A stretch of DNA of 64,000 nucleotides from Microscilla marina ATCC 23134 (lineage in GTDB: Bacteria; Bacteroidota; Bacteroidia; Cytophagales; Microscillaceae): assembly GCF_000169175.1 (NCBI RefSeq), contig NZ_AAWS01000005.1:124001-188000 (forward strand), in the 5' to 3' direction. The position numbers and the translations under genes were made by a program. The notes under the pieces were generated by a model that saw nothing but the letters and a program-made list of their open reading frames with translations, searched no databases and was not told the origin of the DNA. Position 1 is the stretch's first letter. Each line of letters begins with the position of its first letter. Positions 26,618-40,013 of this stretch are shown here, in pieces.

Positions 26618-26650
26618 GGGTATTAAACCTAGACTGTAAATTTAATACCC
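26618..26650. terminator. Hairpin between convergent MscS and phosphatase genes
   Basis: A perfect 10-bp inverted repeat GGGTATTAAA/TTTAATACCC (26618-26627 with 26641-26650) with a 13-base loop lies right after the MscS stop and overlaps the last codons of the minus-strand gene. There is no T tract, so its work as a terminator is uncertain. Confidence 0.45.
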
Positions 26651-28122
26651 ATTACTAAAATATCGTCTATTTGAGACTCATTACCTACTTGCATCCAGTT
26701 TTCCAGCGTTGATTCCAGTATAGACTTTTGTTGACTAAGAGGTTTTTGATAGTTTTCTTTCAATGCTTTTTCAAAACGTGCATTCATAAACTTTCTGCGG
26801 TCTGGACCTCCAAACTGATCTAAATATCCATCTGAAAAGAGATAAACCATGGTAAGTTGGCTATAGGTAATCGTGTGTGCAGTAAAAGGATTTTCTTGGA
26901 TATTGTCTCCACCTATTGCAAACCTATCTCCTTTGATCTTATGAAGCTCATTATTCTTTATATATACCAACGGGTTTTTTGCCCCCGCAAAATGTATTTC
27001 ACTTTTATCTTTGGGTTTAGAAATTAGTGAAATATCCATCCCATCTTTATTATCATTATCTTCTTGATGAAGTGTTTTTCTAACTTTCTGGTGCATTTCA
27101 TACAATATTTCGTTTGGCTCAGTAATCTTTTCTGCCTTTACTATATCGTTTAAAATAGCAACCCCAATCATAGAAAGAAAAGCCCCTGGTATGCCATGCC
27201 CTTGACAATCGACGGCAGCTGCTATGTAATGGCTTTCTGTTTCCACCAGGTAGTAAAAATCACCAGAAACTACCTGAAGAGGTTTAAATAAAATAAACAA
27301 GTCTTTATTCAAGTAATTAGAAATACTTGAGTCTATGGATAAGCAAGCATTTTGGATGGTTTGAGCATATTTGATAGAAGCTATGAGGTTGTCATTTTGT
27401 ACTTGAGTTTTTACTAATACCTGGTTGAGCATTTGATTTTGGGCTTCTATTTCTTCTTTATTCTCCTGTAGTGCGACTGTATTTTCATTGATTTGCTTGA
27501 AAGTTGGTCGGAAAATAAAAAAACCTTCGATACCAAGTAATAATAAGGTAACACTCATTAGCATCATCTCTAAGTTACGAAACTTAGTGATGTTGTCTTT
27601 ACTAAGTTTAGCAAATTGAAACGTGATATGATTCATGAGCTTTAGAAACTCTTCTTCATTATTTAGTATTTGATCGACATAGGCTTTTTGCTCTAAGGTA
27701 TTGATTGAAAAACGAGCTTGGATGAGTTTTTGGGAAGCTTGAGTTATGCTGTCTTTATAGGGTTTTATTTGTCTGAATTTCTTTTTGTTGACTTGATCGA
27801 GGTCGGGTTTAGGTAAGTTAAGCAGTGCATCCCCTTTTAAAAGACCTTGATGGGAATGATTCCAAAGGTTTAAAGCGAGTTTGAGTTTTTGTTGATGCTG
27901 ACTAAACTCGGTGATGTTTTTTGCCCTCAGGATCAGTAGTGCCTCTTTGGTAATTTTCTGGCTAAACATTCTTTGACGCCCCGAAATATTGATAATGTGA
28001 GAATTCTCTTCTTCTTTATGCAGGTATATTTGTAAAAATAATTGGCTCCCAATTGTAAACGCTGCAATCATAAATAGGGCAACTATGTATATGTATGTAT
28101 ATTTCCTTGTATGTATTTGCAT
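26629..28122 (-). CDS. SpoIIE-type PP2C phosphatase with PilJ-like sensor
   Basis: The 497-residue protein has a membrane segment at about 8-34, then a PilJ N-terminal-like helical sensor (HIINISGRQRMFSQKITKEA at its start), a second membrane segment (about 186-207), a coiled coil (about 210-250), and a C-terminal SpoIIE/PP2C-like serine phosphatase from about 255. Metal-binding acidic motifs are visible: VSGDFYYLVE, AAVDCQGHGIPGAFLSM, DGMDISLI and VYLFSDGYLDQFGG. Proteins of this design turn an envelope signal into dephosphorylation of STAS anti-sigma antagonists or similar targets. A SpoIIAA/STAS-like protein is encoded at 10270-10671 in this window, but no direct link can be shown. A second SpoIIE protein lies at 42494. 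Confidence 0.92.
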   Translation of the reverse strand: MQIHTRKYTYIYIVALFMIAAFTIGSQLFLQIYLHKEEENSHIINISGRQRMFSQKITKEALLILRAKNITEFSQHQQKLKLALNLWNHSHQGLLKGDALLNLPKPDLDQVNKKKFRQIKPYKDSITQASQKLIQARFSINTLEQKAYVDQILNNEEEFLKLMNHITFQFAKLSKDNITKFRNLEMMLMSVTLLLLGIEGFFIFRPTFKQINENTVALQENKEEIEAQNQMLNQVLVKTQVQNDNLIASIKYAQTIQNACLSIDSSISNYLNKDLFILFKPLQVVSGDFYYLVETESHYIAAAVDCQGHGIPGAFLSMIGVAILNDIVKAEKITEPNEILYEMHQKVRKTLHQEDNDNKDGMDISLISKPKDKSEIHFAGAKNPLVYIKNNELHKIKGDRFAIGGDNIQENPFTAHTITYSQLTMVYLFSDGYLDQFGGPDRRKFMNARFEKALKENYQKPLSQQKSILESTLENWMQVGNESQIDDILVMGIKFTV

Positions 28123-28819: not shown

Positions 28820-29896
28820 TTAAAATTTAAGTGCCATTGAAAATGTCACAAAAGCATCATTGTTACTTCTCATGTTTTCTTTAGGGAATAACTCATCTGG
28901 GGCAGTGAAAAATTTGCCTTCCAACCTGATAGCCATGTTTTTTTGTGGGCGATAAGCCAAGTTGAGCGACCCAGTATTGAGCATAAAACCATTGGGTGTT
29001 CCTGTATTCATCAATACTTCACTGGGGTCGTTGTAGTTTTCAAAAAACGCGGCTATTGACCACTTGTCAGAGAGTTTGTAACGCAACCATACAAAAAACT
29101 CGGTAGCTGTATCATAAGCCGAGGTGCCCAGCTGTTCTTTTGCGTGATACTCTACAGTAGCGGCTACCTGTAGTCGGTCAGTAATGTCATATTTTACATA
29201 AAAGTCATTAAAAAAAGCAATTTGAGCCGAGAGACTGTCTAGGTTATCGTTTCCTATATAGTTGCCATAACCTATCAAGAGCTGATCGTTGACCTGATAA
29301 CTGGCGGTGAGCATCAGTGACTTAGCTGAATTATTGTCTTGTATTTTTTGTAGTCCGTTTACCAGCGAAACATCCAGGGTAAATTTCTTAGAAGGAGTCC
29401 AGGTGAGGGCAAGCCCCGATTGGTAATAAGGCATAATATCGGCAGCAAAAGACCGTGAATACACAGGGTTTTCGATAGATAAGTTACTTTCAAGGTTAAT
29501 GGCTGCTTCTCTGATGCCTATAGTAGCTTTGAGTTCATTGGTAAGCTTATAAGACACGTTTGCCAAGTAAATGTTTCTTAAAAAACCGGGCTCTCCAGCG
29601 TAATTGTTTCTCACGAAGGTTCCTTCTTGTAAAGCGAAGTTGGCTTCTACTTTTCCTTTTTGATAATTCGCTTGTAAAATCCCCCAGTTAAGGTTAAATT
29701 CATTATGCCGGGCAGGTTGGGTAAAGTATGCTAGGTTTTTGCTAGTGGGATTATTAAAGGTATAAGTATAATAACTGTCAACAAACCCAGAAATGGTGAA
29801 AGGGCTTGTTTCTTTGCTTTTTTGTCCCTCTTCCTGGGCAAAACAATTACATTGTGCAATGATACAGCATAAGATAATGAGTAAGCTTGGTTTCAT
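28820..29896 (-). CDS. Outer membrane beta-barrel (porin-like) protein
   Basis: The 358-residue protein has a signal peptide (about 1-20, ending NCFAQ) and then alternating amphipathic strands with aromatic girdles, for example ISGFVDSYYTYTF at the start of the barrel and a C-terminal strand ending VTFSMALKF with a terminal Phe, the usual outer membrane assembly signal. The pattern fits the outer-membrane-barrel porin family with an opening FVDSYY motif that is common in Bacteroidota. It would be a small-solute pore or carbohydrate/phosphate porin, but the specificity is unknown. It heads a two-gene unit with the small protein at 28546. Confidence 0.88.
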   Translation of the reverse strand: MKPSLLIILCCIIAQCNCFAQEEGQKSKETSPFTISGFVDSYYTYTFNNPTSKNLAYFTQPARHNEFNLNWGILQANYQKGKVEANFALQEGTFVRNNYAGEPGFLRNIYLANVSYKLTNELKATIGIREAAINLESNLSIENPVYSRSFAADIMPYYQSGLALTWTPSKKFTLDVSLVNGLQKIQDNNSAKSLMLTASYQVNDQLLIGYGNYIGNDNLDSLSAQIAFFNDFYVKYDITDRLQVAATVEYHAKEQLGTSAYDTATEFFVWLRYKLSDKWSIAAFFENYNDPSEVLMNTGTPNGFMLNTGSLNLAYRPQKNMAIRLEGKFFTAPDELFPKENMRSNNDAFVTFSMALKF

Positions 29897-30118: not shown

Positions 30119-31492
30119 ATGGCAAAGAGTCAAACCACTCCACGTCGTTTTTATTTATTTGTGTTAGGGCTTATGGGAGCCTTCATCATCGTTTTTGTGT
30201 ATTGCCTGAGTATTATGCTATTGGCAAACCGCAAAGCGGAGCCATTGACCAAAAGCGAAAGAAGTATTAGGGCGTTGGGCAAAGCTTATATACAGTTTGG
30301 ATACTATGAGTTGAGAGAGTTTTACCTGACTTTGGCAGCAAAAGAAGAAAAAAGGGCTGACTTGATTAAAGAAACAGATAGCCTTTGGGCACACATTGAA
30401 ACAAACATCGCTCAGTACCAAAAGTATACTATGTTAGAACAGCCTGCTGCAACTACGCTTCGTAAAATGTTGCAGGCTTACCGCCAAAGTTCCCTTACCA
30501 GAAGAAAGCTGTTGGAGTCGGGGCAGTTCAATCAGGCGTTAAGTCATTTAACCTCAAACCAACACCAGCAGGTATTTTATAAGCAAGAAGAATTGTTTGG
30601 TGATATAGGTGACTTGTTGCCTTACCAAATGCAAAAGTTATTGAAACCCGAAGCGTCAGCCTATGTCCATGGGCTCTCGGGTATGGTAAGCGCTGGTTGG
30701 GTACTTATAGTGGCTTCAATTATAATCTTTATTTTTATTCAATTAGCATTTGATGCTTTTGAGCGCAAGTTGTTGGTCAAAAGAATATTGCCTTTACTTA
30801 TTCTTATCAATGTAGTTGTTCAGGGCATTGTATTGTTTAAGCCTTCCCCTCGTTTTGGTGCCAAGTATCAACTGGTACAAGACCATACCCTCTTTATCAA
30901 TTTTATGAGCTATTTTAATCATTATACCCAGTTAGAGTTTAAGCATGCACTAGACTCATCACGCTTGGTAAAAAAACAAATAGAGGAGGAGATGGCTGTA
31001 TATCACCGCTCGGTGCGTCAGACATTGCGCGATAGCCAGCATAAGTTGGGCTCAAGGTTTAAACATGAGATCTCGCAATTAAAAAAGCTCAGAAAAGAGT
31101 ATTTCACCAAGCAAAGGATTCCAGCACTGGTTTATTCGTTCAACAGTGGAGAATTGGCTGCTTTGAGATTATTGATGCCGAGTGGACATTTGTCAGACAG
31201 CACCTTAAACAGTCTTGACCCAGAGTCGGTAATATATGAAGAAGGACAAAATGCCAGGATTATTCGTGAGTTTCACCAAAGTTTTGATAAAATATTGCAG
31301 GGGCTAGATACACATTACCCCGTGGCTGTTCAAAAACTTTGTCAAAAGAATCCATATCGAGGGTTTTACTGGGGAGGAATTGGCTTGTGTGTGTTAGGCT
31401 TGATTTGGCTTTTATGGCGTTTTAGAAAGCCCAAGAAATGGGTGGTATACAAAGCAAAAAGTCATTTTTTAGTCAAAAAGCAATTAAGTTAG
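30119..31492 (+). CDS. Orphan membrane sensor with two helical-bundle domains
   Basis: The 457-residue protein has membrane segments at about 11-37, 188-210, 219-237 and 422-440, giving two extracytoplasmic helical domains (about 40-185 and 240-420) of the four-helix-bundle MCP-sensor kind. The second domain is clearly related to the sensor domain of the next gene: both share the run KKQIEEEMA, preceded by an EF(K/R)H motif and followed by similar helices. No kinase, cyclase, HAMP or methyl-accepting output is present, only a short basic C-terminal tail. It may therefore act as a partner or decoy receptor for the hybrid kinase encoded 136 bases downstream. The function is inferred from this shared domain and adjacency. 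Confidence 0.85.
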   Translation: MAKSQTTPRRFYLFVLGLMGAFIIVFVYCLSIMLLANRKAEPLTKSERSIRALGKAYIQFGYYELREFYLTLAAKEEKRADLIKETDSLWAHIETNIAQYQKYTMLEQPAATTLRKMLQAYRQSSLTRRKLLESGQFNQALSHLTSNQHQQVFYKQEELFGDIGDLLPYQMQKLLKPEASAYVHGLSGMVSAGWVLIVASIIIFIFIQLAFDAFERKLLVKRILPLLILINVVVQGIVLFKPSPRFGAKYQLVQDHTLFINFMSYFNHYTQLEFKHALDSSRLVKKQIEEEMAVYHRSVRQTLRDSQHKLGSRFKHEISQLKKLRKEYFTKQRIPALVYSFNSGELAALRLLMPSGHLSDSTLNSLDPESVIYEEGQNARIIREFHQSFDKILQGLDTHYPVAVQKLCQKNPYRGFYWGGIGLCVLGLIWLLWRFRKPKKWVVYKAKSHFLVKKQLS

Positions 31493-31499
31493 TATTGAA

Positions 31500-31529
31500 T
31501 TTGTGCATTGATAAAAAAACGTATCTTTG
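31500..31529 (+). promoter_or_regulatory. Bacteroidota-type promoter of the hybrid kinase-cyclase gene
   Basis: TTTG at 31500-31503 and TATCTTTG at 31522-31529 (consensus TAnnTTTG) are separated by 18 bases, close to the usual spacing of the main Bacteroidota sigma factor. Transcription would start near 31536, leaving a leader of about 90 bases before the ATG at 31629. It implies separate transcription from the upstream sensor gene. Confidence 0.7.
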
Positions 31530-31628: not shown

Positions 31629-34600
31629 ATGAACAGATGGTTTTCTAAACTTCCTATCTACATAAGGCTTCGCATAGGGTTTGGTGTTGTGCTGGTGCTT
31701 ACCCTGGCCATGACCATCTTCTCTATCCAGCAGTTAGAGCAGCTCCACAAGAAAACTAAAGAAATCAACGAGAAATGGTTGATCAACGTGAGAGAAATCT
31801 CAGAATTTAGTACCAACCTGGGGTACTATTCTATCAGTGAGTTTCGTCACATTAATTCGAGCGACCCAGTAGCAAAAAAACAGATAGAAGAAGAGATGGC
31901 AAACATTCGCCGTAAGCTCCGTAAAAGCCTGGATCGTTATGAAAAACTCGTAGTCACTAACAAAGAAAGGGCTTTACTGAGAAGTGTTAAAAAAATGCGC
32001 CAAAACTATTTTTCTGTTCTTTCGGCACCTGTGCTGGAGCTGTCGCGCCAGGGTAGGACAGAAGAAGCTACTAAACGGGTGTTGTCGGGAGCCAATGCCA
32101 AGGCGATTCAAGACATTAAGGAAAAGCTGGATGAGATTGTATTAGAAAATAAAAAAGGAAGTACCAAAGCTGCCAGCGACAGTGAAGCCATTTACGAGCG
32201 ATCTACTACTGAGGTGTGGGCTATTTTGATTGCAGCTATTTTTCTGGGAGTTTTAATTTCTATGATGGTATCGAGCAACATCAGGAGGCAAATAGGTGGT
32301 GAACCACATATTATAGCCAATATTGCCCAGAAAGTATCATCAGAGGGAGATTTGGATATTCACTTTGATGCAGGACAAAATGCTGGTATTTATGGTTCGG
32401 TCAGGCAAATGGTCAATACTTTTAGAGAGATTGGTAGTGTAACAGCTGACTTATCCAAAGGGCACTCTGCTGAAACGCTTAGAGTAAAAAGTGATAAAGA
32501 TACGCTTGCTTTGTCTATCAATCAGATGATTGATAATTTTAAAAAGGTGATCATGCAGGCGAATGAAATAGCCAAGGGTAATTTTTTGGTGCAAATAGAT
32601 TTACGCAGCGAACAGGATGAGTTGAGCATTGCTTTGCAGCAAATGACTAAAAGTTTGAGTGAAAACAAACTGAAAAACGAGCAGGAAAATTGGGTAAAAG
32701 ATGGAATCAACCAGTTGAGTAAAGATATTTCCAGCGACATTTCTCTTGAAAAAATTTGTCGTCAATCCATTAGTTTTATTTCCCGTTATGTAGAAGCTGC
32801 CCAAGGGGTGATCTATTTGTATGACAAAGAAGATGAATATTTGAGCTTGTATGCTACCTATGCGTTCAAAGAACGCAACGACATTTCTAACAAATACAAA
32901 TTGGGAGAGGGGCTGGTAGGACAGGTAGCCCTTGAGCAAAAACCTATTTTGTTGAAAAACGTGACCCGCAAAGAGTCGGTAGTGCATACTGGAGTGATTA
33001 GCGAAGCCCCTCTGTATATTTACGCCCTCCCTTTGGTGTTCGAAAATGAATTGCATGGGGTTGTCGAGCTTGCCTCATTTGAAGAATTTACCCAGCTTAA
33101 GCAGCGTTTTTTGGATGAAGCCGATCGTATTTTGACTACTTACCTACATTCTGCCCAACAAACCGAGGAGGTGAGGCGTTTACTGGTGATTGCAGAAGAG
33201 GCAAAACAAGAAGCCGAAACTAAGGCCCAGGAGCTTGCCCAATCGCAAGAAGAACTAAGGGCTACCTCAGAAGAGCTACAGCACCGCAACGAAGCCCTGG
33301 AAAAGCACACCAACGAAATAAACGAGGTAAACGTAAGGTTGGAACAAAACCAGGAAGAATTGCAAAGCCAACAGGATGAACTAAAAAATCAAAATGCCAC
33401 GCTCGAAAAAGCCCGTCTTGAGCTTGCTAGACGCACCGAACAACTAGAGCTTGCCAATAAATATAAATCAGAATTTTTGGCAAATACTTCTCACGAAATA
33501 CGCACTCCTTTGAACGGAATCATTGGGCTTACTGAATCGTTGATTGACGGAGCAGCCGGACCTTTGAACGAAAAGACCATGAGTAACCTTGAGTTGATCA
33601 ACAGTAGCGCCATCCGTTTGTCTACCTTGGTAAATGATATTCTTGATTTTTCACGAATGGAAAACCACGAATTGGGTATTCAAAGGAAACCTACCGATTT
33701 TTATGCCATTGTAGATGTGGTGGTACGAGTAAGTCGAGAGCTGATAGGAGACAAAGACTTGGTGCTGGTAAATACTATAGGCAAAGACATTCCAATTATA
33801 GAAGGAGACGAAAACCGATTACAACAGATATTATATAACTTGATAGGCAATGGTATTAAGTTTACCGAAAGTGGCCAGGTAACTTTATCGGCTAAAACGA
33901 CCGATGCCTTTTTAAGCGTAAGCGTAAAAGATACAGGGATAGGTATATCGCCCGAAAGTCAAGACCGGATTTTTGAGTCGTTTGAGCAAGAAGATGGTTC
34001 TACTTCCCGTAATTATGGGGGAACTGGCTTGGGGCTGGCCATTTCTAAAGAATTGGTAGAGCTTCACGGAGGAACCATTCAACTGAAGTCGGAAGTGGGC
34101 AAAGGATCGGAGTTTATATTTACTCTGCCAATATCTCAAAACCAAAGCATTGCAAGAAAGAGCAAAGAAACGCCATTATCTATAGATCCGCCACCATTGG
34201 CAAACAATGAGGAAGAAACAGCCGTTAGTTCGTTATTGAATCAAAATATTTTTGATAAGTCTGCAGTCGTATCAGCTCCTGATTTGGAAAGTATAGAGAG
34301 CAATGAACGATTAATTGCCCATATAAATAGCAATTATCAGGTGAAAATTTTGGTGGTAGATGATGAACCCGTAAATTTACAGGTCTTAGAAAATCATCTT
34401 TCAATTCAAAATTACAACATCACTCAAGCATCAGACGGCTTAAAAGCACTAAAAATTATTAAGGAAAGCAAAGAGCCATTTGATATTATTTTGCTGGATG
34501 TGATGATGCCTAAAATGTCGGGTTATGAAGTATGCCGAACTATTCGGGAGCGGTTTCCACTGGTTGAATTGCCAGTATTGATGCTCACTGCTAAAAACCA

Positions 34601-35498
34601 GCCTAAAGACATCGTAGAAGGTTTTGACGCTGGAGCAAACGATTACCTTACCAAACCTTTTTCTAAGGTAGAGTTACTATCACGTATTAAAACCCATGTA
34701 TTACTAAAACTGACCAGCGAAAATCTGCAGACCGCCAACGAAAAACTACAAGAGTATAATGCTACTCTTGAGCAAAAAATAGAAGAGCGTACGGAGGAAA
34801 TCAATACCTTATTGTTGAATATTTTGCCAGAAGAAGTAGCCAATGATCTAAAAACCAACGGCAAAGCACCTGTAAAGTATTATGCCATGAGCACGGTGTT
34901 ATTTACTGACTTCCAAGGGTTTACCAAGCAAGCCTCAGAGATGGACAGCAAAGAGTTGGTAGAAGACCTAAACGAGTATTTTGCGGGTTTTGATGACATT
35001 ATGGAGCAATATAACCTGGAAAAAATCAAAACTATTGGTGATGCGTATATGGCAGCTGGTGGTATACCACAGTCTAATACAACCAACCCAGTAGATGCAG
35101 TACTTGCCGGACTGGCTATTCAACAGTTTGTAGCAGCAAAACGAGCCGAAAGAAAAGCAGAAGGCAAACAGTTTTGGGATGTTAGGCTAGGCGTTAATAC
35201 AGGAGAGGTAATAGCGGGCGTTATAGGTACAAAGAAATTTGCCTATGATGTGTGGGGCGACTCGGTAAATACGGCGGCTCGAATGGAAAGCGGTGGTAAA
35301 GTAGGAGAGGTGAACATTTCGCATAATACGTATGAAATGGTGAAAGACTATTTTGATGTAGAGCACCGTGGCAAAGTAAACGCCAAAGGTAAAGGAGAGG
35401 TAGATATGTATTTTGTGAAAAGGATTAAGTCTGAGTTGTCAGCAGATGATGCCGGAACTAAGCCTAATCAGGCTTTTTGGGTAAAGCTAGAGGGGTAA
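31629..35498 (+). CDS. Hybrid histidine kinase / response regulator / adenylate cyclase
   Basis: The 1289-residue protein joins a complete phosphorelay to a nucleotide cyclase. In order: TM1 (about 12-30), a four-helix-bundle sensor (about 31-195), TM2 (about 197-218), a HAMP-like linker (about 218-345), GAF (about 360-520), coiled coil (about 520-610), HisKA with His622 in SHEIRTPLNG, HATPase_c (about 725-840, with intact GTGLGLAI), a REC domain with Asp957 in LLDVMMPKMSG, and a class III cyclase (about 1075-1270). The cyclase metal ligands are Asp1094 (FTDFQGFT) and Asp1138 (IGDAYMAAGG). The Lys of EKIKTIGDAY and the Asp of YDVWGD favour ATP over GTP. The plan resembles cyanobacterial CyaC: kinase autophosphorylation should control cAMP synthesis. 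Confidence 0.95.
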   Translation: MNRWFSKLPIYIRLRIGFGVVLVLTLAMTIFSIQQLEQLHKKTKEINEKWLINVREISEFSTNLGYYSISEFRHINSSDPVAKKQIEEEMANIRRKLRKSLDRYEKLVVTNKERALLRSVKKMRQNYFSVLSAPVLELSRQGRTEEATKRVLSGANAKAIQDIKEKLDEIVLENKKGSTKAASDSEAIYERSTTEVWAILIAAIFLGVLISMMVSSNIRRQIGGEPHIIANIAQKVSSEGDLDIHFDAGQNAGIYGSVRQMVNTFREIGSVTADLSKGHSAETLRVKSDKDTLALSINQMIDNFKKVIMQANEIAKGNFLVQIDLRSEQDELSIALQQMTKSLSENKLKNEQENWVKDGINQLSKDISSDISLEKICRQSISFISRYVEAAQGVIYLYDKEDEYLSLYATYAFKERNDISNKYKLGEGLVGQVALEQKPILLKNVTRKESVVHTGVISEAPLYIYALPLVFENELHGVVELASFEEFTQLKQRFLDEADRILTTYLHSAQQTEEVRRLLVIAEEAKQEAETKAQELAQSQEELRATSEELQHRNEALEKHTNEINEVNVRLEQNQEELQSQQDELKNQNATLEKARLELARRTEQLELANKYKSEFLANTSHEIRTPLNGIIGLTESLIDGAAGPLNEKTMSNLELINSSAIRLSTLVNDILDFSRMENHELGIQRKPTDFYAIVDVVVRVSRELIGDKDLVLVNTIGKDIPIIEGDENRLQQILYNLIGNGIKFTESGQVTLSAKTTDAFLSVSVKDTGIGISPESQDRIFESFEQEDGSTSRNYGGTGLGLAISKELVELHGGTIQLKSEVGKGSEFIFTLPISQNQSIARKSKETPLSIDPPPLANNEEETAVSSLLNQNIFDKSAVVSAPDLESIESNERLIAHINSNYQVKILVVDDEPVNLQVLENHLSIQNYNITQASDGLKALKIIKESKEPFDIILLDVMMPKMSGYEVCRTIRERFPLVELPVLMLTAKNQPKDIVEGFDAGANDYLTKPFSKVELLSRIKTHVLLKLTSENLQTANEKLQEYNATLEQKIEERTEEINTLLLNILPEEVANDLKTNGKAPVKYYAMSTVLFTDFQGFTKQASEMDSKELVEDLNEYFAGFDDIMEQYNLEKIKTIGDAYMAAGGIPQSNTTNPVDAVLAGLAIQQFVAAKRAERKAEGKQFWDVRLGVNTGEVIAGVIGTKKFAYDVWGDSVNTAARMESGGKVGEVNISHNTYEMVKDYFDVEHRGKVNAKGKGEVDMYFVKRIKSELSADDAGTKPNQAFWVKLEG

Positions 35499-35608
35499 GC
35501 GCTTGTTTAAAGTTAGCCTATAAGCTTTAAGGTGGACGAAGAATAATACTTAAATGAGGTACAGGGGCAACCCAATGGCCTGATGCTTTAAATAAATGTT
35601 AATTGACG

Positions 35609-37345
35609 ATGTATAATAAACTAAAGGTAGGTCTGTGTTTGTGTGTAGTGTTGTTGAGTAGTGTGGCAATGGGGCAGTCAGGCTCTAAGCTCACCAGCCA
35701 ACCTGCAGGAGAGGTAAGAACATTGATGGCAGCTGCAGATGCTTTTATGAAAAGTGGGTCGTATCGCAATGCTTATAATACCTACCTAAAGTTAGTCAAT
35801 GTATACAAGCAAAAAAATAACCAGGCAGGGGTAGTAGCCAATGTAGATAAAATTATTGCGTTACACGAACAAAAGAAAATCAACCTTCCCTCTAACACCC
35901 TGATCAACTATTATGCTACCCGAAGTAGAGCTGCCAATGCTCTTGGACTGAAAACTACCCCCAAGATGTACTTGAATATGGCTGAAGTGTATGCCAAAGC
36001 AAAACAGATGAAGAAGGCTGTATACTTTGCCGAAAAAGGCTTGAGGTTATCTAACAACACCGAAACCGCTGATTTGCTCAATACCCTTTTGCGTAACCTG
36101 GATGTAGACAAAGTGGACTATAACGGTAACTATGGATTAAAGGCAAAGCTGAAGGCAGTACAACAGGAACTGGTACGCAAAGAAAATGCTTTGCAACGTC
36201 TAAAACGTCAAAGTGCTTTATTACGCAAGCAAATACTTGGGCAGGCAGAAGACTTAGAAAAAATGGACAGAAACCTTAAGTCTCAAACTGCCATTGCCAA
36301 GAACCGCCACCGAGTGAATGAACAACTCGAAGACTCTAACAATAAACGTAAGTGGTGGAACATTGTATTGGTATTTTTAGCATTGGTAGGTTTCATTGCT
36401 GGAGGTTACTCTGCCGCAAGGCTCTATTTCAATGGGCGTCAGCGCAAGCAAATAAATAGTAAGCTAATGAATAAAGAGGCTGCTTTGCTCACTGCCAAAG
36501 ATAAGCTACTGGATGCCAAAGACACCATCCAGTCTCAAAAAGAAGAGTTGCAAGATAAAAAATATACTATTCAACGCCATTTGTCAGAAATAGATGGTAG
36601 AAAAATAGAGTTGGTAGAGCTTACCGAGCAAGCACAGTTGCAAAAACGCCAATTGGCATATATGAAAGAGTCTAAGGTACAACTTGCCGAAACCATTGCC
36701 CAGGATTTAAAGAAGCCTTTAGATGTGATTTTGCGCAGTAAAGATTTAGTAGCTATTCAGGGAGCTGGTGACCAAATGAAAAAGTATACTGAAGAAATGC
36801 TTGCCATTCAGCAATACCTCAATGGCCACCTTGACTTAAAAATTGCTGATTTTAACTTCCATTATGTAGTGCAACAAACCATCGCTCCCTGGCTGGCTCA
36901 GGCAGAGAAGAAAGGCGTCATTGTGGTAAACCAGGTACCTGCGCAATATTGGGGTACTTTTGACAAAGGTTTGATTAGTCGTGTGATAGAAAAACTTTTT
37001 CGCAAGGCTATACAACATACCCTCACTGGAGGTAAAGTAGCTATTTCAGGGAAGCCAATACACCCCACAGAGACAAACGACCATTCAATTGGTGGGTTAG
37101 AGTTATCCATAGCCGACGATGGTGCCAGTATTTTGTATGATGAATTTCAGAAAATATTTCAACCATTGATGGATTTAAATGCCAGAGAGTTTTCTGACAA
37201 AGCATTGGCTGGTATTGACCTTACCTTTTGTAAAGTAGCACTAGAAGCACATCAAAGTAATATAAAAGTAGCATCAGAGACTGGAGTTGGCACTACTTTC
37301 ACTTTTCAATTGCCACTGGGTTCTCCACAACAAATGATTGATTAA
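35609..37345 (+). CDS. TPR protein with degenerate histidine-kinase core (pseudokinase)
   Basis: The ATG at 35609 is preferred over the TTG two codons earlier. The 578-residue protein has a signal peptide (about 1-23), a helical TPR-like region (about 30-170), a coiled coil, one membrane segment (about 252-272), a second coiled coil, and a kinase-like end. In the dimerisation motif the phospho-accepting His is replaced by Gln365 (IAQDLKKPL). In the ATP-binding domain the N-box Asn is Lys466 (FRKAIQHT), the G1 box reads DDGAS and the G2 box is GIDL, not GLGL. Catalysis is therefore unlikely, and a scaffolding or allosteric role is the simplest reading. It follows the kinase-cyclase by about 110 bases on the same strand. 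Confidence 0.88.
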   Translation: MYNKLKVGLCLCVVLLSSVAMGQSGSKLTSQPAGEVRTLMAAADAFMKSGSYRNAYNTYLKLVNVYKQKNNQAGVVANVDKIIALHEQKKINLPSNTLINYYATRSRAANALGLKTTPKMYLNMAEVYAKAKQMKKAVYFAEKGLRLSNNTETADLLNTLLRNLDVDKVDYNGNYGLKAKLKAVQQELVRKENALQRLKRQSALLRKQILGQAEDLEKMDRNLKSQTAIAKNRHRVNEQLEDSNNKRKWWNIVLVFLALVGFIAGGYSAARLYFNGRQRKQINSKLMNKEAALLTAKDKLLDAKDTIQSQKEELQDKKYTIQRHLSEIDGRKIELVELTEQAQLQKRQLAYMKESKVQLAETIAQDLKKPLDVILRSKDLVAIQGAGDQMKKYTEEMLAIQQYLNGHLDLKIADFNFHYVVQQTIAPWLAQAEKKGVIVVNQVPAQYWGTFDKGLISRVIEKLFRKAIQHTLTGGKVAISGKPIHPTETNDHSIGGLELSIADDGASILYDEFQKIFQPLMDLNAREFSDKALAGIDLTFCKVALEAHQSNIKVASETGVGTTFTFQLPLGSPQQMID

Positions 37346-38696: not shown

Positions 38697-40013
38697 ATGA
38701 AAGAGTATAGCATTCTTGTGATTGATGATCAATACAATAATTTAAAAACTATTACGGCTTATTTTGATGCCTCACTAGAGCCTTATGCCATCTTGGGAGC
38801 CACCAGCGGCATGATGGGGTATCAACTGGCGCTTGACAAACGCCCTGACCTGATTATTATGGATTGGGAAATGCCAGAAATGAGTGGAATTGAGGCGGTA
38901 AAAAAACTAAAAGCATCACCTGTTACCAAAGACATTCCCATTATTATGGCTACTGGGGTAATGACTCATCCCGATGACCTGCGTACAGCACTGGAGGCGG
39001 GTGCCATTGATTATGTGCGTAAACCTATCGACAAAGTAGAATTACTGGCTCGTACCCGTTCAGCTATTGCCTTGTCAGAGTCTTATCAGCAAATCAAACT
39101 TTTGTCAGACTTTAAACAAGCAATGACCCACATGCTGGTGCATGATCTCAAGAATTCATTGGGGGTAGTGATGAATTTATCTGAAAAGCCTAAAGTAATA
39201 GAGGCTGGACGACAAATGACTCATTTGGTCATGAACTTGTTAGATGTACAAAAGTTTGAAGATGCCAACATTGAAGTACAAAGTGTACCTTATCCGTTTG
39301 TGCAGGTGTTGGCGCAGGCAGTGTCTCAGGTAGACTATTTGCGGATGCAAAAAAACATTGCCTTGGACTATGACAATCATTTAAAAGCCTTGGTGTTGAT
39401 AGATGAAGGCTTGATTTTAAGGGTTTTGGTAAATTTATTACACAATGCCATTAAGTTTAGCCCTCAAAACAGCACCATCAGCATAAAGGCAGAAGCAGTA
39501 AAAAGCGAATGGCTTAAGGTGCAAATCACGGATCAGGGAACAGGAATAGCTACGTCACATATTGAGAAGATATTTGATAAATACTATCAGGTAGAAGTAA
39601 AAAACCAAGAACAGATTCAATCAACAGGGTTGGGGCTTACTTTTTGCAAATTTGCGATAGAAGCTCATGGAGGCGAAATAGGGGTAGAGTCGCGAGAAGG
39701 AGAGGGGAGTACTTTTTGGCTCACTTTGCCTATGTCTTTCAGGGCGTCAGCTGCTACTGTTGGTGGTGTGCTGGAAACTGCCAACCTAGGGAACGATATA
39801 ATGCTTACGGTAGATGATCAACAGGCGTTGGCTACTTTCCGGGCAGACATAGTTGTGCTGAAGTTTTATGAGGCCTCCAAACTCAAACGTTTGTTGAATA
39901 ATATTCCTGCCCAAAGTGCCTCTGTTGAGCGTTGGAAAGAAGCCATTCAACAAGCTGTATTAAACTCAAATAGAACACAATTCGAGTACTTGAAAAGCTT
40001 ATTAATTGGATGA
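38697..40013 (+). CDS. REC-histidine kinase (response-regulator-linked sensor kinase)
   Basis: The 438-residue cytoplasmic protein has an N-terminal REC domain (about 4-120) with the acidic pair Asp10/Asp11, phospho-accepting Asp56 (IIMDWEMPEMSG) and Lys109 (YVRKP). It continues into a HisKA-type helix with His149 (MLVHDLKNSLG) and a HATPase_c domain with intact N-box (LLHNAIKFSP) and GLGLTFCK box. The last 70 residues are extra (RRLLNNI-type helices). This arrangement, REC before kinase, lets one phosphorelay gate another kinase. The stop overlaps the ATG of the next REC gene by four bases (ATGA), so the two are made together and probably form a relay. Confidence 0.94.
   Translation: MKEYSILVIDDQYNNLKTITAYFDASLEPYAILGATSGMMGYQLALDKRPDLIIMDWEMPEMSGIEAVKKLKASPVTKDIPIIMATGVMTHPDDLRTALEAGAIDYVRKPIDKVELLARTRSAIALSESYQQIKLLSDFKQAMTHMLVHDLKNSLGVVMNLSEKPKVIEAGRQMTHLVMNLLDVQKFEDANIEVQSVPYPFVQVLAQAVSQVDYLRMQKNIALDYDNHLKALVLIDEGLILRVLVNLLHNAIKFSPQNSTISIKAEAVKSEWLKVQITDQGTGIATSHIEKIFDKYYQVEVKNQEQIQSTGLGLTFCKFAIEAHGGEIGVESREGEGSTFWLTLPMSFRASAATVGGVLETANLGNDIMLTVDDQQALATFRADIVVLKFYEASKLKRLLNNIPAQSASVERWKEAIQQAVLNSNRTQFEYLKSLLIG

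Follow-up and report, generated by a model that had tools for sequence, protein, structure and literature searches.

The protein encoded beside a histidine kinase-adenylyl cyclase in the window (the whole 64,000-nucleotide stretch of Microscilla marina DNA analysed) is an output-less membrane protein, here called the orphan, with two 4HB-size extracytoplasmic bundles, of which the second is, to judge from the alignments, specifically related to the sensor of that kinase. A functional link between the two proteins is plausible, given this specific relatedness, the purifying selection on the orphan gene and a gene order that is conserved in both available genomes of the genus, the second being that of an uncultured Microscilla (L007, the sister species). 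On the whole reading tentatively preferred here, which we infer at rather less than an even chance, a single ligand or binding protein is recognised by both the orphan and the kinase-cyclase, whose response the orphan tunes.

Table 1. Predicted features of the orphan, the adjacent kinase-cyclase and the spacer between them (positions are those of the window).
Feature	Residues	Position	Strand	Basis
Orphan, output-less tandem 4HB membrane protein, 457 aa		30119..31492	+	ORF, hydropathy, charge
Bundle 1, generic, 4HB_MCP_1-like	37-190	30227..30688	+	Pfam, hhalign
Bundle 2, putative twin of the kinase sensor	242-415	30842..31363	+	hhalign; no Pfam match
Segment of bundle 2 common to the kinase sensor	262-341	30902..31141	+	Smith-Waterman, column matches, hhalign
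KKQIEEEMA in bundle 2	285-293	30971..30997	+	Smith-Waterman alignment, genome pattern scan
RKEY of the orphan, aligned with MCP2201 R135/Y138	R325, Y328	31091..31102	+	alignment
Promoter-like site TTTG-N18-TATCTTTG, in the spacer just past the orphan stop		31500..31529	+	pattern; kept in sister
Kinase-cyclase, 1289 aa (4HB_MCP_1, GAF, HisKA, HATPase, receiver, class III cyclase)		31629..35498	+	Pfam
KKQIEEEMA in the kinase sensor	83-91	31875..31901	+	Smith-Waterman alignment, genome pattern scan
RQNY of the kinase sensor, aligned with MCP2201 R135/Y138	R124, Y127	31998..32009	+	alignment

Hydropathy predicts four TM helices in the orphan, at about residues 18, 189, 223 and 415, which delimit extracytoplasmic segments of ~150 and ~173 residues. 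The in-out-in-out-in topology that these helices suggest agrees with the distribution of positive residues of the K/R type, which number 3/12 at the N-terminus, 4/14 in the loop 209-222 and 9/24 in the C-terminal tail. Since this layout fills the chain, no space is left for an output domain, and Pfam gives none: apart from a sub-threshold 4HB_MCP_1 match, the search returned five weaker, unrelated names, all below threshold, which bears out the initial annotation in describing a receptor that lacks a signalling output domain. The 4HB_MCP_1 match (PF12729) falls on bundle 1, at 23.3 bits (E 5.2e-5) or 26.2 bits in a genome-wide search, in both cases below the gathering cut-off of 27; bundle 2 has no credible match in Pfam. 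Both bundles would fold as 4HB domains, each complete within the single chain. They are unlike one another in sequence, and the score between the N- and C-terminal halves (28) is not significant, being reached by 456 of 500 shuffles. The AlphaFold2 model of the orphan (pLDDT 39.3) predicts helices, whose arrangement is untrustworthy at such confidence. A search of solved structures with the orphan pair gave no match at E up to 1, and a plasmid search gave none.

The kinase sensor is a clear member of 4HB_MCP_1 (89.2 bits; cut-off 27), and bundle 2 resembles it more than it resembles other 4HB domains. The Smith-Waterman score between the two (BLOSUM62) is 117, which none of 500 shuffles reaches (maximum 56); the N-terminal half of the orphan (residues 1-215, TM parts included) scores 76 against the same sensor (0/500 shuffles, maximum 62). 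When 52 4HB sequences are ranked against bundle 2, the adjacent kinase sensor comes first (117, z 14) and the next scores 63 (z 5.3), the other 51 being 20 sensors from homologous kinases and 31 candidates of short or tandem size. Compared with these 20 homologs, for which z is at most 5.5 and identities in the aligned block at most 17/77, the adjacent sensor reaches z 15.4 and 26/78. Profile comparison by hhalign gives E 6.7e-8 (probability 94.6) for bundle 2 against the kinase-sensor pair and just 6.4e-5 against a 17-row sensor family. Bundle 1 appears to be a generic 4HB relative, with z ~5 to several sensors and an hhalign E of 1.4e-4 (probability 53) against 17 kinase sensors. The likeness of bundle 2 is partial, covering ~80 residues at ~35% identity, so that the sensor domain first described as shared is common in this block and has not been copied as a whole. 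Counts of rare residues do not single out the adjacent kinase over the whole alignment (9/73 vs 9/69 for the homolog L068); in the common block alone it has 7/30 and the next sequence 4/30. The sensor tree neither demonstrates nor rejects a grouping of bundle 2 and the kinase sensor in one clade (p-AU 0.416), and the best tree weakly unites the two bundles of the orphan (49/67).

The presence of the motif KKQIEEEMA with common flanks in both proteins, as initially annotated, is confirmed. A degenerate DNA pattern for it finds two sites in the 9.77-Mb genome, in the orphan and kinase genes only, and the same pattern read backwards, as a control, finds none. Nineteen distinct homologous kinase sensors match the motif columns at 1 to 5 of 9 positions, and among the aligned sensors the motif is exclusive to the orphan and the adjacent kinase. 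The two 26-base copies show three silent differences, and each has its own codons unchanged in the sister species; recent gene conversion of the motif is therefore ruled out, as these differences are kept in both species.

The distribution of identities over the helices was compared with the chemoreceptor MCP2201, the helix limits of the kinase sensor being taken from this alignment and from an AlphaFold2 model of low confidence (pLDDT 55). The common block runs from distal helix 1 through helix 2 into the early part of helix 3: orphan and kinase are identical at 6/17 positions of distal helix 1 with the tip, 12/28 of helix 2 and 12/39 of helix 3. Elsewhere identities are low, at 1/24 in proximal helix 1 and 5/24 in helix 4, which is poorly alignable. 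MCP2201 is reported to hold its ligand inside one bundle, where helix 3 contributes R135, Y138 and R142 and helix 2 contributes T104, T105 and T108; R135 and Y138 bind the malate carboxylates, and helices 1 and 4 build the dimer, with contacts also at distal helix 1 and the tip (PMC10735184). Kinase R124 and Y127 align with R135 and Y138 (phmmer to 5xub/6its, E 0.0014). The pocket Arg is present in the orphan and the adjacent kinase and in none of 20 homologous sensor rows, and the Tyr is widespread (15/20, the remainder having Phe). A one-residue insertion in helix 3 is common to the orphan, the kinase and one homolog (L067). T104, T105 and T108 are kept in neither protein and R142 is not kept in the kinase; orphan and kinase agree at the pocket positions F, Y, R and Y and differ at the others. 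The alignments thus indicate that the two proteins have a lineage-specific distal, or pocket, side in common. The orphan resembles MCP2201-type chemoreceptors and kinase sensors (4HB_MCP_1) through bundle 1, by the sub-threshold Pfam match, and through bundle 2, by its likeness to the kinase sensor, but differs from them in having two bundles per chain and no signalling domain.

A full-length orphan occurs in 2 of 57 relatives (its own genome counted), both in the genus, and among 390 genomes sampled from the order in these two only, as far as a scan of genome contigs with exact peptide patterns, which detects close relatives alone, and genome searches that scored few candidates per genome, and whose absences are not strict, can tell. 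With the gene in two species only, there is no independent co-occurrence with the kinase. Twins beside other kinases were sought with phmmer at 20 loci in 18 genomes, and none of the neighbouring ORFs of at least 100 aa matched the orphan at E up to 10, contig ends having removed the upstream genes at L067 and L073 and the downstream genes at L068. At L070 the kinase homolog lies in two ORFs, a sensor of 240 aa and a kinase part of 546 aa, 75 bp apart, either a true split or a sequencing error. The orphans of the two Microscilla species differ by 38 changes (91.7% identity, dN 0.038, dS 0.230), and the gene is under purifying selection; an intact frame in both species and a dN/dS of ~0.17 rule out a pseudogene. 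The kinase is 99.0% identical, with 13 changes, one of them within sensor residues 30-190. Constraint on bundle 2 is uneven when it is divided at residue 355, a split chosen after seeing the alignment: 4/101 residues have changed in 255-355 vs 12/60 in 356-415 (Fisher p 0.0018), and the ratios of replacement to silent codons are 4:17 and 12:8 (p 0.011). Bundle 1 is conserved about as well as the common part of bundle 2 (6/101 changed).

The closest architectural parallel is GlnX of Corynebacterium glutamicum, whose topology was confirmed by fusions and which acts upstream of the kinase PknG, described as cytoplasmic (PMC9769921). Its two 4HB segments are predicted to pair in the fashion of a chemoreceptor dimer, and its authors, who state that they know of no further case, call the arrangement a "helical tandem module" (PMC9769921), a term that was not found beyond that paper in the literature searched. 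The orphan matches the layout of this module: its one chain has four predicted TM helices, two membrane-anchored segments that are extracytoplasmic and as long as a 4HB, and no output domain. GlnX likewise has four TM helices and no output domain; its two periplasmic 4HB segments, each ~155 residues long and dissimilar in sequence, are joined by ~11 cytoplasmic residues (PMC9769921). GlnX acts on a protein kinase, and the orphan adjoins a histidine kinase-cyclase (PMC9769921 for GlnX); the orphan also differs in lacking the long cytoplasmic N-terminus and in having a neighbour with its own 4HB sensor, related to bundle 2. Membership of the GlnX sequence family is ruled out. The orphan scores 16.4 bits against the family model NF058618 (18.2 in a genome search) at a cut-off of 250, which nothing passed in 395 genomes of the phylum, and 33 places among the matches listed for these genomes, ordinary long 4HB proteins included, had better E values.

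Single-bundle output-less 4HB proteins, which resemble the orphan in lacking an output domain but have one bundle and two TM helices, are common in the Bacteroidota. Among 31 ORFs selected mainly for short or tandem-like length from the matches listed, 15 are complete two-TM ORFs of 208-272 aa, from 14 genomes of the phylum, and the four-TM tandem layout occurs in none of the 31. One genome of the same order (L127) carries two such single-bundle genes within ~5 kb. The missing output domain is therefore ordinary, and the unusual part is the combination of a tandem with a kinase-like bundle beside that same kinase. These proteins, together with the existing work on GlnX (PMC9769921), weaken the original view that output-less receptor twins are seldom described; decoy receptors with histidine kinases yielded no related case in the literature searched. 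The orphan is a candidate second case of the GlnX-like layout, in another phylum, and its bundle 2 indicates which sensor it is tied to. The pair amounts to a natural experiment, in which two sensors, probably of one descent, adjoin, one with and one without output, and allows ligand binding and signal transmission in 4HB receptors to be told apart.

Under the preferred reading, the orphan would be an output-less tandem 4HB receptor, with two membrane-anchored domains in one chain, most likely packed together as in a chemoreceptor dimer by analogy with GlnX. Bundle 2 would retain the distal side of the kinase sensor, where the ligand pocket lies, its helix 4 having diverged; helix 4 is the helix through which kinases and chemoreceptors pass the signal into the cell. 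Most likely a single small ligand, possibly a carboxylate, or else a single binding protein would be recognised by orphan and kinase alike. The orphan would set the strength or level of the kinase-cyclase response, either by ligand uptake or by lying alongside the kinase in the membrane. A ligand common to bundle 2 and the kinase sensor, though itself inferred from aligned residues, fits the original proposal of ligand titration, and equally a sharing of the ligand, as the common block carries the part of the pocket aligned with MCP2201. The rather unlikely full form of this reading is that a tandem 4HB pseudo-dimer arose beside the histidine kinase-adenylyl cyclase, kept the ligand-pocket side of its sensor, lost the signalling helix and became a co-receptor tuning cAMP output. 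If true, a GlnX-like module in the Bacteroidota would be wired to a two-component cyclase, reading the same ligand from within the membrane.

The mixed bundles also proposed in the initial annotation, in which bundle 2 would pair with the kinase sensor and so block or bias the kinase dimer, draw on the fact that the likeness takes in distal helix 1 and the tip (6/17), which are dimer contacts in MCP2201 (PMC10735184). They are made improbable by helix 4 (5/24) and proximal helix 1 (1/24), which are not in common, and by the GlnX analogy, under which the orphan's own bundles would pair together (PMC9769921). Because the common block is the pocket side and these dimer parts are not common, a common ligand is favoured over mixed bundles, though the two proteins may touch at the bundle tip. 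It is unlikely that the orphan is instead an independent receptor in the style of GlnX, whose short tails act on another cytoplasmic partner and whose likeness to the kinase sensor reflects ancestry only. Such a role would suit the GlnX layout, GlnX itself controlling PknG with no output domain reported (PMC9769921), as well as the basic 24-residue C-terminal tail with its 9 K/R and the presence of further kinases downstream (35603-37345 and 38697-40013); it leaves the greater constraint on the sensor-like part of bundle 2 unexplained, and the orphan has no long N-terminal cytoplasmic region of the GlnX type. Quite improbable is a generic 4HB likeness functionally unconnected to the kinase. 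The coiled pattern common to 4HB domains, the abundance of output-less single 4HB proteins in the phylum and the failure of the sensor tree to place bundle 2 (p-AU 0.416) would all be expected of it, but the kinase sensor outscores the 51 other 4HB sequences by a wide margin, and KKQIEEEMA is confined genome-wide to the two neighbours.

The spacer between the two genes differs in length (136 bp here, 363 bp in the sister) and may provide the kinase with a separate promoter, which weighs against the preferred reading. It contains no forward terminator-like site, and the promoter-like site in it is weak, since the window has seven sites of this type where 5.5 are expected by chance, which is no excess. 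In the sister, whose spacer (L007:11375-11737) is 227 bp longer, the inserted sequence lies downstream of the promoter-like site and ahead of the kinase start. On the other side of the orphan, a BBP2-type beta-barrel porin gene (28820-29896, minus strand; Pfam) is divergent from it, and beyond it lies the gene of another receptor (26629-28122, minus strand; Pfam), in which a PilJ-type sensor is joined to a phosphatase domain of the SpoIIE type; this gene is kept in the sister. Downstream of the kinase, a TPR protein (35603-37345, plus strand) has a HATPase domain and no HisKA match in Pfam; its H-box place reads AQDLKKPLD by eye, which may leave the protein without a phospho-acceptor His. A receiver-HATPase protein follows (38697-40013, plus strand), with a HisKA match in Pfam that is sub-threshold.
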